This document shows, piece after piece, positions 4,657 to 36,483 of a stretch of 64,000 bases of DNA. The position numbers and the translations under genes are program-made. Each line of letters opens with the position of its first letter. Position 1 is the first letter of the stretch. The DNA lies in assembly GCA_006438735.1 (NCBI GenBank), contig RCZF01000001.1, forward strand, positions 62,001-126,000. Reading direction: 5' to 3'. The stretch is from Sphingomonas koreensis. Lineage in GTDB: Bacteria > Pseudomonadota > Alphaproteobacteria > Sphingomonadales > Sphingomonadaceae. The notes under the pieces are model-generated. The model saw only the letters and a program-made list of their open reading frames with translations, was not told where the DNA came from and ran no database searches.

Positions 4657-4726
4657 CGTCATCCTCGCGAAGGCGGGAACCCATCTCGTACGGCAAATGA
4701 TGGTCCCCGCTTTCGAAGGGATGACG
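4657..4726. repeat. Palindromic intergenic repeat, family A
   Basis: Begins CGTCATCCTCGCGAAGGCGG and ends with the inverted form CCCCGCTTTCGAAGGGATGACG. The same arm sequences recur at 9627, 13394, 34841 and 35527 in this window. It lies in the tail-to-tail gap between the HD-domain gene and the TonB receptor gene. A small hairpin TGAGGC/GCCTCA (4622-4639) just upstream may help end the HD transcript. Confidence 0.8.
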
Positions 4727-9626: not shown

Positions 9627-9694
9627 CGTCATCCCCGCGGAGGCGGGGACCCATCTCCTGCCGTCCGAGACGGGTCCCCGCCCGCGGGGATAAC
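9627..9694. repeat. Palindromic intergenic repeat, family A
   Basis: CGTCATCCCCGCGGAGGCGG followed by GACCCATC, a centre containing CCTGCCGTCCGAGA, and the inverted arm GGGTCCCCGCCCGCGGGGAT. It fills most of the gap between ligA and recN. The centre is nearly the same as in the copy at 13394. Confidence 0.85.
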
Positions 9695-9717
9695 AATGCG
9701 ACGGTGTCGGCATGCGG

Positions 9718-13393: not shown

Positions 13394-13463
13394 GTCATCC
13401 CCGCGAAGGCGGGGACCCATCACCTGCCGTCCGAGATGGGTCCCCGCCATCGCGGGGATGACG
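13394..13463. repeat. Palindromic intergenic repeat, family A
   Basis: GTCATCCCCGCGAAGGCGG, GACCCATCACCTGCCGTCC, then GAGATGGGTCCCCGCC and CGCGGGGATGACG. This is the most regular copy in the window. It sits in the convergent gap between manA and the prephenate dehydratase gene, where such an element could also act as a bidirectional transcription end (inference). Confidence 0.88.
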
Positions 13464-20367: not shown

Positions 20368-20482
20368 CCCTCTCCCCTTCAGGGGAGAGGGTTGGGAGAG
20401 GGGCAGTCCGATCATTCACATTACAGGGCCGGGATCGAGAGACTGCCCCTCTCCCCGGCCCTCTCCCCTGAAGGGGAGAGGG
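20368..20482. repeat. Large palindromic repeat between serC and serA
   Basis: The left arm is built from CCCTCTCCCCTTCAGGGGAG followed by GGTTGGGAGAGGGGCAGTC. The right arm is its inverse: GACTGCCCCTCTCCCCGGCC followed by CTCTCCCCTGAAGGGGAG and AGGG. Each arm also contains its own hairpin around TTCA or TGAA. The right arm ends 9 nt before the serA ATG and carries the only purine-rich ribosome-site candidate for serA. Confidence 0.85.
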
Positions 20483-33035: not shown

Positions 33036-35516
33036 TCACAGATCGGGCAGCACCTGCGCCGATACGCCCCAGCCGGCGAGCGAGCGATCATTGGCGCGCT
33101 CGATCAGCGTTTCGGCGTCGGTGACGTGAAAGCGCGCGGCGGTATCGAGATCGCGCAGCTCGTTCCACGAAACCGGCGCGGCCACCGGCGCGCCGGAGCG
33201 CGCGCGCGCCGAATAGGGCAGGATCGCGGTGGCGCCGCGCTGGTTGCGCAGCCAATCGATGAAAATCTTGCCCTTGCGCTTGGCCTTGGACATCGTCGCG
33301 ACGAAGCGATCGGGCTCGGCGGCGGCGAGCGCGCGGCTGAAGCGATCGGCGAAATCCTTGACCGCCGGCCACTCGGCCTCGGGCTTCAGCGGCACGACGA
33401 CGTGGACGCCCTTGCCGCCCGACAGCATCGCGAAGCTGACGAGGCCCATTTCGGCGAGGTGATTCTTCAAATCCTCGGCCGCCTTCTTCACCGCGTCGAA
33501 CCCCAATCCTTCGTCGGGATCGAGATCGAACACCAGCCGATCGGGCTTTTCCAGCGCATCGACCGACGACCCCCAGCCGTGGAACTCGATCGATCCCATC
33601 TGCACGCAGGCGACGAGGCCGTCGGCGTCCTCGATATAGAGATAGGGCTCGGTCGATCCGTCTTTTTCGCGAATGTCGACATGGTGGACATAGTCGCCGA
33701 AGCTGCCGGCGTCGTGCTTCTGGAAGAAGCATTTCTTGCCGCGGCCTTGTGGGCAGCGGACGAGGCTGACGGGACGGTTGGCGGTCCATGGCAGCATGAT
33801 CGGCGCCAACTCAGCATAATAAGCGGCGAGATCGCCCTTGGTCACCTTGCTGTCGGGGAAGATCAGCCGGTCGGCGCTCGATACCTTGACGTGGATCGCT
33901 GGCGCGGCGGGCGTGGGCGCGGGCGCTTCGGGCACGACATCCTCCGCGGGCTTGTCCTCGCGCAGGCCGAGATAGCTCGGGTGGCGCAGCACGCCGTCAG
34001 GCGTGAATTCGGTGAAGGCGATCTCGGCGACGAGCTTGGGGCTGATCCACGACGCCCCGCGCGCGGCGACGCGCGGCACCTCGGCCGGCGGAGTCTTGCG
34101 CGCGAGGCGATCGAACTTGCCAGCGAGATCGTCCATCGCGTCGCGATCGAAACCGGTGCCGACCTTGCCCGAATAGACCAGCGCGCCGTCGCGATACTGC
34201 CCGAGCAGCAAGGAACTGAACGGCCGGCCCTTGGCGGTGCTTTTCGACCAGCCGATCAGCACGAATTCCTGCCGCCGCGTGCATTTGATCTTGAGCCAGG
34301 ATTTGCTGCGGGTGCCGCGATAAGGCGCGTCGGCGCGCTTCGAGACGATCCCTTCATAGCCTTCGCGGCACATCGCCTCGAACAGCTTTTCGCCGGCGCC
34401 GGTGATATGTTCGGCGAACTGGACGCGCTCGTCGGCGCCGTCGATCAGCGGGCGCAGCCGCTCTTTGCGCTGGACGTTGGGGAGAGCGGTGAGGTCTTCG
34501 CCGTCGAGCGACAGGATGTCGAAGGCGAACAGCGTCATGTCGCCGCCGTTCGAGATCGCGTCCTTGAGCGTCGAGAAATCGGGCTTGCCGGCCTTGAACG
34601 CGACGATCTCTCCATCGATCAGCGCCGAGGAAACGGGAAGGGCGGTGGCGGCTTCGGCGATGCCGGGGAATTTGTCGGTCCAGTCGTGGCCATTGCGGGT
34701 AAATACCTTTGCGGCGCCGCCCGCGACGGCGACAAGCGTGCGGTAGCCATCGTATTTGACCTCGTGAATCCAGCCGCTTCCAGTCGGCACGTCATCGACC
34801 AGGGTGCAGAGCTGGAGGTCGTGGAAGGCCGGCAGCTTGCCGTCAGTCCTGCGAAGGCGGGAACCCATCGCCCGCGCTTTGGGCTTGGGTGAACCTTTGG
34901 AGATGGGCCCCCGCTTTCGCGGGGGTGACGGTTCCGCCTTCTTTCCCTCGGCAATCTCCTGCATCGTCCGCCCGGTCTTGACGCTGGTCAGCCCGGTCTC
35001 GACGAGATCGTCCGATCCCCCCGCATCGGCGTCGTCGATCTTGCGCAGCAGCCAGTTCTCGCGCTTCTCCTTGCCGCGCGGCTTCAATCGGATCAGCAGC
35101 CATTCGCCCTTCATGCGCTCGCCTTGGAGGATGAAGTGGAGGTGGCCCTTTTCGATGTCCTTGGCGCTCTTGCCCTTGATCGGCGACCAGGTGCCTTCGT
35201 CCCACAGCATCACCGTGCCGCCGCCATATTCCTTCTCGGGGATCGTCCCTTCGAAGGTCGCATAGCTCAGCGGGTGGTCCTCGGTGCGGACCGCGAGGCG
35301 TTTGTCGTCGGGATTGATGCTCGGTCCCCGCGTCACCGCCCAGCTCTTGAGCACACCGTCCATTTCCAGCCGGAAATCCCAGTGGAGCCGCGTCGCGTCA
35401 TGTTTCTGGACGATGAAGCGGTTGCCGTGGCGCTTGGCGAGCGTGCCGGCCGGCTCCGCGGTCTTCGCGAAGTCGCGCTTGGCGTTGTAGAGCGCGAGGG
35501 GGTCATTCGCCGCCAT
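33036..35516 (-). CDS. ligD: Multifunctional DNA ligase D (NHEJ)
   Basis: The end-processing and sealing enzyme of bacterial non-homologous end joining, 826 aa, in the order phosphoesterase, ligase, polymerase. The phosphoesterase (about 30-190) keeps His39, His45, Asp47, Arg49 and His81. The ligase has the adenylation lysine Lys254 in HEVKYDGYR and the later motifs IDGEIVAF and EGIVSKR. The polymerase (about 545-820) has Asp664 and Asp666 (FDLDPDEG) and Asp754. Residues about 196-226, in the linker before the ligase, are encoded by a palindromic intergenic repeat. It lies 109 bp downstream of ku on the same strand. Confidence 0.97.
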   Translation of the reverse strand: MAANDPLALYNAKRDFAKTAEPAGTLAKRHGNRFIVQKHDATRLHWDFRLEMDGVLKSWAVTRGPSINPDDKRLAVRTEDHPLSYATFEGTIPEKEYGGGTVMLWDEGTWSPIKGKSAKDIEKGHLHFILQGERMKGEWLLIRLKPRGKEKRENWLLRKIDDADAGGSDDLVETGLTSVKTGRTMQEIAEGKKAEPSPPRKRGPISKGSPKPKARAMGSRLRRTDGKLPAFHDLQLCTLVDDVPTGSGWIHEVKYDGYRTLVAVAGGAAKVFTRNGHDWTDKFPGIAEAATALPVSSALIDGEIVAFKAGKPDFSTLKDAISNGGDMTLFAFDILSLDGEDLTALPNVQRKERLRPLIDGADERVQFAEHITGAGEKLFEAMCREGYEGIVSKRADAPYRGTRSKSWLKIKCTRRQEFVLIGWSKSTAKGRPFSSLLLGQYRDGALVYSGKVGTGFDRDAMDDLAGKFDRLARKTPPAEVPRVAARGASWISPKLVAEIAFTEFTPDGVLRHPSYLGLREDKPAEDVVPEAPAPTPAAPAIHVKVSSADRLIFPDSKVTKGDLAAYYAELAPIMLPWTANRPVSLVRCPQGRGKKCFFQKHDAGSFGDYVHHVDIREKDGSTEPYLYIEDADGLVACVQMGSIEFHGWGSSVDALEKPDRLVFDLDPDEGLGFDAVKKAAEDLKNHLAEMGLVSFAMLSGGKGVHVVVPLKPEAEWPAVKDFADRFSRALAAAEPDRFVATMSKAKRKGKIFIDWLRNQRGATAILPYSARARSGAPVAAPVSWNELRDLDTAARFHVTDAETLIERANDRSLAGWGVSAQVLPDL
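34841..34930. repeat. Family A palindromic repeat inside the ligD coding region
   Basis: CGTCAGTCCTGCGAAGGCGG, AACCCATC at one end and GAGATGGGCCCCCGCTTTCG, GGGGGTGACG at the other match the arms of the intergenic copies, with a different centre. The element is 90 nt, exactly 30 codons, and reads through without a stop as PSPPRKRGPISKG..MGSRLRRTDG in the linker between the phosphoesterase and ligase domains. Confidence 0.85.
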
Positions 35517-35526
35517 CGCCTAGTCT

Positions 35527-35615
35527 GTCATTCCCGCGGAAGCGGGAACCCATCTCCCGCCCGTCGCGCTTGATGCAGCCATACGAGATGGGTTCCCGCT
35601 TTCGCGGGGATGACG
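35527..35615. repeat. Palindromic intergenic repeat, family A
   Basis: GTCATTCCCGCGGAAGCGGG, AACCCATCTC, a centre of about 30 bases, then GAGATGGGTTCCCGCTTTCG, CGGGGATGACG. It fills the gap between ku and ligD, 11 nt ahead of the ligD ATG on the transcribed side, so the ku-ligD message would contain it. A second copy sits within ligD 600 bp away. Confidence 0.87.
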
Positions 35616-35625
35616 AGTAAGGCGC

Positions 35626-36483
35626 TCAAGCACGTTTCTTCGCCGCGGGCTTCTTCGCGGGCGCCTTTTTCGCCGGGGCCGCCTTGGCCGCGGGTTTGTC
35701 GAGCGACTTCTTCAGCGCCGCCATCAGATCGACGACGTTCGATCCGCCACGCCCGCTGCCGTCATCCTTGTCCTCGATGATCTTCTTGCCGGTCTTCGAC
35801 TTGCGCTTGCGCTCGATCAGGCCTTTCAGCGCGTCGACGTAGCGATCGTGGAATTCCTGCGGGTGGAATGGTCCGGTCTTCTTGTCGATCAACGTCTCGG
35901 CGAGCTCAAGCAGATCGGCATCGGGCTTATCGTCGGGAATATCGCGGAAATAGCCCTGCGCCTTGTTGACCTCGTCGGCATAGCGCAAGGTCTCGAGCAC
36001 CATGCCGCGTCCGCACGGCTTCAGGCTGACGACATATTCGCGCCCCCGCATGGCGAGTTGGCCAAGGCCGACCTTCTTGGTTTTCCTGAGCGCCTCGCGC
36101 AGCACGATGAACGCTTCCTCGGCGAGATCGTCGGCTGGCACGACGAAATACGGCTTTTCGTAATAGAGCACGTCGATCTCGCTGGCGTCGACGAACTGCG
36201 TCAGCTCAAGCGTCTTTTTCGATTCGAGCTTCACCGCGTCGATCTCGTCCTGATCGAGCAGCACATAGCTGCCCTTTTCATATTCATAGCCCTTCATGAT
36301 CTCATCGGCATCGACCGGGCCGACGCCGGTGACGACCTTTTCGTAATGGATCGGCTTGCCCGACGGCTCGTGAATCTGCCGGAACGAGACGTTCGCGCCC
36401 GATTTGGTCGCGGTGTAGATCTCGACCGGGATCGAGACCAAGGCGAGCCTGATTTGTCCCTGCCAATAAGCGCGCGCGGCCAT
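35626..36483 (-). CDS. ku: Non-homologous end-joining protein Ku
   Basis: A homodimeric DNA-end-binding protein of 285 aa that recruits LigD. The N terminus MAARAYWQGQIRLALVSIPVEIYTAT-type sequence and FRQIHEPSGKPIHYEKV are typical of bacterial Ku. The core ends near residue 225 and is followed by a Lys/Ala/Pro-rich tail (AAPAKKAPAKKPAAKKRA), which in other Ku proteins adds DNA affinity. The start at 36483 is chosen by homology; the frame is open further upstream but would run into the divergent pdxH promoter region. Confidence 0.97.
   Translation of the reverse strand: MAARAYWQGQIRLALVSIPVEIYTATKSGANVSFRQIHEPSGKPIHYEKVVTGVGPVDADEIMKGYEYEKGSYVLLDQDEIDAVKLESKKTLELTQFVDASEIDVLYYEKPYFVVPADDLAEEAFIVLREALRKTKKVGLGQLAMRGREYVVSLKPCGRGMVLETLRYADEVNKAQGYFRDIPDDKPDADLLELAETLIDKKTGPFHPQEFHDRYVDALKGLIERKRKSKTGKKIIEDKDDGSGRGGSNVVDLMAALKKSLDKPAAKAAPAKKAPAKKPAAKKRA

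Follow-up and report, generated by a model that had tools for sequence, protein, structure and literature searches.

We consider it probable that a CGTC-tagged REP dimer resident in the host genome has turned into codons for the disordered linker of LigD in Sphingomonas koreensis, and that this linker is one of several coding slots that tolerate repeats and whose contents are swapped by recombination. The element was found in a 64,000-nucleotide stretch of the genome (contig RCZF01000001.1, positions 62,001 to 126,000), which we refer to as the window. A broader reading, in which fixed coding slots of Sphingomonas are refilled repeatedly by unrelated palindromes, the reading frame used in LigD is selected for basicity, and the repeats are a continuing source of linkers, is put forward tentatively.

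The ligD element and its neighbors in the window

The ligD gene (33036 to 35516, minus strand) encodes a protein of 826 residues in which Pfam (LigD_N, DNA_ligase_A_M/A_C, and LigD_Prim-Pol) and NCBIfam models place a phosphoesterase domain at residues 37-143, a ligase domain at residues 246-411 and 430-522, and a polymerase domain at residues 559-810. The ku gene lies upstream of it (35626 to 36483, minus strand; Pfam Ku, 1.4e-48). The element occupies positions 34841 to 34930 on the minus strand, reads C-GTC...GAC-G, and is exactly 90 nt long. In agreement with the original prediction, it is read without a stop as about 30 codons of ligD (residues ~196-225), giving the peptide PSPPRKRGPISKGSPKPKARAMGSRLRRTDG in the linker between LigD_N and the ligase domain that begins at residue 246. 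An AlphaFold2 model based on a 30-row alignment gave pLDDT values below 50 for residues 196-224, the stretch encoded by the element, and the linker is thus predicted to be disordered.

Folding of the element's strand gave -56.5 kcal/mol as compared with a mean of -36.4 kcal/mol for shuffled sequences (z = -6.3), with none of 200 shuffles equaling it, and strong hairpins were obtained on both strands. Its inverted-repeat score of 17.6 is higher than that of all 2390 shuffled linkers (maximum 15.2). Matches of the arm HMM, which reach E values down to 1e-10, are confined within LigD to residues 196-225. They comprise arm 1 (34842 to 34869, minus strand; 27.5 bits), one degenerate REP unit at the 3' end of the coding copy, and arm 2 (34903 to 34930, minus strand; 31.2 bits), a REP unit of the form CGTC-ACCCCCGC-GAAA-GCGGGGGC-CCA, an anatomy whose parts were counted over the family. 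The ligD copy matches at 22 of the 28 arm positions, as compared with a family median of 24, and is therefore somewhat worn. Assignment of the element to a named RNA family was rejected, as its matches to microRNA models were weak and all fell below the gathering scores.

The arms of the element recur at 35527 to 35615, in the gap between ku and ligD, as established by sequence comparison, and at 4658 to 4725, 9628 to 9695, and 13394 to 13462, as established by arm sharing (all four unstranded). Both this relationship and the intergenic setting had been predicted; the copies at 4658 and 9628 do lie between long open reading frames. A distance of 10 nt separates the end of the copy directly upstream of ligD, likewise foreseen, from the start codon of that gene, a position from which translation of ligD or the ku-ligD transcript could be affected. 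A repeat is placed in the ku-ligD gap in the same way in L164, L286, L188, and L284, and an arm match lies no more than 300 nt upstream of the gene in 21 of 238 LigD genes. The upstream copy had been taken as a sign of local copying. Its identity to the ligD element is 78-80% (78% in register), and local copying is unsupported because the nearest kin of the ligD copy are elsewhere in the genome: L045 (84%) and L044 (82%) are closer than the upstream copy (80%), and the loop is also closest to that of L045. The window additionally contains a different inverted repeat at 20368 to 20482, CCCTCTCCCCTTCAGGGGAGAGGG, with 29-nt arms.

The element closely resembles CGTC-tagged REPs

Copies of the repeat family in the genome were collected from searches and from sequence stretches. 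When the genome that contains the window was searched, 78 matches were obtained, on both strands, and the arm HMM identified 42 elements, of which 41 have both arms. Sixty-three of the 82 arms begin exactly with CGTC, including both ends of the ligD copy. Among these 63 arms, 49 form seven of the eight stem pairs, 37 have a GAAA loop, and 57 have a CCA tail. Each element is made up of two REP units with their tags pointing outward, that is, a dimer.

CGTC-tagged REPs of Alphaproteobacteria have been described previously (Di Nocera et al. 2013, BMC Genomics 14:522, PMC3733652). Passages of that paper give the unit as a CGTC tag (with TGTC and CCTC variants), a stem of 8-9 bp with complementary AT at its first and second positions, a loop of 4-5 nt, and a CCA tail, and state that these REPs are present in many copies, largely intergenic, and frequently arranged as dimers. 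The ligD element is like them in its dimeric organization as well as in the tag, the CCA tail, and a loop of 4 nt. Inspection of our family consensus shows the outermost A opposite a C, so that the first AT pair given in the published consensus is generally absent. For this reason, membership judged from sequence is close but not perfect, and we regard the ligD element as a putative dimer of CGTC-tagged REPs.

Copies of the family are scattered over many intergenic locations that are unrelated to one another and differ in their flanks. Clear insertions in genes were seen, among the 41 paired copies, only in ligD, hrpB, truB, and a biotin carboxylase gene. The length of the ligD element, 90 nt, is the commonest in the family (13 of the 41 paired copies), and family lengths are distributed evenly modulo 3 (15/13/13), indicating that in-frame status is not automatic. 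No common direct repeat of the kind expected for a target-site duplication was seen by eye in the flanks of the 41 copies. The published survey, in the passages cited, did not find a dedicated transposase for CGTC REPs (PMC3733652).

Several kinds of palindrome occupy the LigD linker in other species

Two sets, one of 295 genomes of the genus and one of 84,980 genomes, were searched for LigD, and 239 genes were left for comparison once duplicates had been discarded. In each of these genes, the linker and the remainder were scored separately for inverted repeats. The top score outside the linker in any LigD gene was 16.2. This value was exceeded by 75 of the 239 linkers, a count that is descriptive because the threshold was taken from the same data. 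None of 2390 dinucleotide-shuffled linkers and none of the 239 remaining gene bodies reached the score of those 75 linkers. The original prediction had called a palindrome in a protein linker uncommon, a view at odds both with this proportion of strong palindromes in the LigD linker and with the intragenic REPs already published.

At least three unrelated kinds of palindrome, whose arm sequences are not common to them, occupy the linker. Kind A consists of CGTC REPs with the cores GCGAAAGC or GGCGAAAGCC, kind B is approximately 140 nt long and starts with TCCTCCCCGG, and kind C is CTCCCCTCCCGCTTGCGGGAGGGG. Labels assigned by hand, partly by eye, gave 41 linkers with A, 48 with B, 3 with C, and 101 with none; the hand-checked list was used in place of a regular expression for degenerate A-type elements, which produced many false matches in Lys/Ala-rich linkers. 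In the hosts tried, the genome contains a multicopy family of which the linker element is a member, be it A (G031, G047, and G059), B (G024, G053, G016, and G044), or C (G054). One query gave no copies in G004, where the resident element is different from that query. Many orthologues have a short linker with no trace of an element.

The reading frame across the linker is intact in 236 of the 239 LigD genes. Each of the three exceptions (L183, L186, and L188) contains an element or what remains of one, and each turned up as a broken or split gene or match. A short remnant of family B is present in L186 and L183.

Gain, loss, and exchange of linker elements

On a LigD tree built with the linker excluded and scored with the hand-checked labels, at least 51 state changes are needed (33 for presence or absence), a figure that overstates insertions because linker alleles exchanged by recombination inflate the changes on a gene tree. 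Different families are found in genes with 97-98% identity outside the linker, namely L022 (B) and L320 (A), and L066 (A) and L073 (B). In L022 and L320 the entire linker differs, and judging from their sequences, pairs of this type look like the product of linker-allele exchange by recombination and not of simple insertion. In L066 and L073 the flanks agree as far as a common junction on the left, and the agreement on the right is close.

The closest orthologue, L061 of Hephaestia mangrovi (genome G154, as matched by contig coordinates), is 85% identical outside the linker and has no element in LigD, and no copy of the repeat family was found in the G154 genome at E 1e-5. The original prediction had proposed a look for orthologues lacking exactly this segment. 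L061 does lack the element, but its linker is shorter by 17 codons, not 30, and no exact empty site for the window's element was found. In the next relative, G114, the family is present in many copies and LigD contains an A-type element. Because G114 branches outside the group formed by the window and H. mangrovi, gain and loss are both compatible with these data: the element may have been gained in the window's line, or it may have been inserted before the split and lost in H. mangrovi.

L282, sister to the window and H. mangrovi, carries an A-type element at nearly the same position as that of the window and with the same flanks, as would be expected if a single ancient insertion in LigD had been inherited and later overwritten through ectopic gene conversion with resident repeats. 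We consider such a history unlikely, since families A, B, and C have no common arm sequence to drive conversion, many orthologues have short linkers without a trace of an element, the elements use more than one reading frame, and L066 and L073 carry different families at a common junction.

Slots in truB, pccA, and hrpB

In-frame copies are also present in the window's genome in hrpB (L040), in a biotin carboxylase subunit gene (L144, here termed pccA), and in truB (L150), with gene identities taken from NCBIfam and Pfam. Among the 30 best-scoring genes for each, a strong palindrome was found in 24 truB, 14 pccA, and 13 hrpB genes, samples that are enriched for elements because the query contained one. 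Nearly always the palindromes lie at one site per gene, two being located elsewhere. In query residues, the truB slot (~134-192) separates the N-terminal from the C-terminal domain, and the hrpB slot (~471-517) separates the helicase domain from the connector region. The slot in pccA (~369-425) lies early within the biotin carboxylase C-terminal domain, indicating that an intradomain loop can also serve. When the truB site was compared in 60 genomes, approximately half of the matches were unbroken and approximately half were split there, as if empty. In L227, the pccA gene of G047, the slot contains roughly 50 non-repeat residues, DNDVEDDPSAHHVTGSELWREYQAEQEEAKETAFAEGSWAYGYTMSQ, and no strong palindrome. 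The repeat at 20368 to 20482 of the window resembles palindromes of the form CCCTCTCC..GGGAGAGGG that L256 and L257 carry in their hrpB slot.

We propose that the repeats insert or are copied widely, that insertions in folded domains or out of frame would be purged by selection, and that a few disordered slots, in the LigD linker, truB, biotin carboxylase, and hrpB, would tolerate them, with slot contents presumably being swapped between species via homologous recombination. By analogy, near-neutral tolerance is suggested as the default for in-frame elements, because a Rickettsia Gmk with an RPE is active, with altered substrate affinity, according to a passage of PMC2229807.

Reuse of a single site per gene by different families could also reflect recognition of a target sequence at these four spots, with tolerance playing only a minor part. 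This seems to us quite improbable given that the same spots are used by unrelated families, that copies of the family lie in varied intergenic flanks, and that the LigD site coincides with predicted disorder.

Reading frame and linker charge

In LigD, A-type elements are read in the RKRG or RRKPG frame in ~39 of 41 genes, in the PAKAG frame in 2, and in the RHPRESGDP frame in none (nine were read by eye). Of 14 A-type elements inspected by eye in truB, hrpB, and pccA, 9 use the RHPRESGDP frame. These frame counts are raw gene counts in which kinship is ignored. The RHPRESGGP frame of the window's element is also open, and it would carry a net charge of +5 versus +9 in the frame that is used. 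Linkers with an element have a mean net charge of +8.0 (A), +8.2 (B), or +8.7 (C) and are 47-55 residues long; linkers without one are Pro-rich and average +7.7 and 34 residues. The original prediction had the repeat creating the protein linker, a claim that is not supported, for element-free orthologues already have a basic linker there with a net charge of about +8. According to the same prediction, the element may alter flexibility between the domains or the affinity of the enzyme for DNA.

Because nearly all CGTC-type elements in LigD use a basic frame, selection on linker charge is suggested, such that LigD would need a basic linker and elements would be kept in the frame that supplies positive charge. 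With this frame nearly always retained, the encoded peptide would replace the charge of the native linker and add no new activity.

Alternatively, the element might be retained for an RNA or DNA hairpin, acting in mRNA stability or protein binding, with the peptide as a by-product, as both strands fold strongly and a second copy lies 10 nt before the ligD start, as it does in some other species. We hold this to be very unlikely. Unrelated palindromes substitute for one another and absence is frequent, which argues against a specific signal, and the frame bias in LigD favors selection at the level of the peptide. Finally, although native linkers are likewise basic and Pro-rich, we give practically no credence to the idea that GC-rich Pro/Arg/Lys codons seem palindromic by chance or composition, and we reject it on the scores of the shuffled linkers (0/2390) and gene bodies (0/239) relative to those of the 75 linkers and on HMM E values down to 1e-10.

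Relation to known intragenic repeats

In-frame palindromes in genes are already known, from Rickettsia RPEs and intragenic REPs, and the basic phenomenon is not new. Passages of PMC3733652 describe intragenic CGTC REPs contributing 20-30 amino acids in repair genes and in truB of S. alaskensis and E. litoralis, as well as a REP at about one common site in recB of two Xanthomonas species. The word ligD is absent from the main text of that paper, and its passages do not describe a single slot filled repeatedly by several unrelated families across an entire genus, as found here. Rickettsia RPEs (Ogata et al. 2000, in PMC2229807) are likewise in-frame palindromes tolerated in conserved genes, but they occur in other hosts and are 105-146 bp long, and their likeness to the ligD element is of kind only; filling of one slot by several families is not stated in the passages of PMC2229807 that deal with them. 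Enterobacterial RU-1/RU-2 and the Neisseria Correia elements (Delihas, PMC2229807) are also small non-autonomous repeats translated within genes. They differ in being MITE-like with TA ends, as described in passages of the same paper, and are unrelated in sequence as far as known.

What is new is the recurrence: a genus-wide slot, several unrelated families, and a gene-specific frame. In the open-licence literature we found no report of a genus-wide multi-family slot or of a palindrome in the LigD linker. Scattered cases of repeats in genes are thereby joined by a dense comparative set, with one slot, several families, and hundreds of species. The set opens a question that can be pursued from sequence alone, namely whether intragenic repeats are merely tolerated or shape proteins, and it also allows one to ask whether LigD needs linker length or linker charge. 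It carries a warning that some annotated sphingomonad protein linkers are repeat DNA. If the broader, tentative reading is true, selfish repeats keep supplying interdomain linkers to a repair enzyme.

Other LigD-like sequences in the genome

Two further LigD-like sequences are present in the window's own genome. One, L190 (G000:C3:278661-280996), is a lone LigD ligase-domain fragment of about 112 residues with 52% identity. The other, at G000:C1:491262-493115, is a second LigD-like gene that matches only residues 211-826, with 57% identity, and that apparently has no phosphoesterase part.
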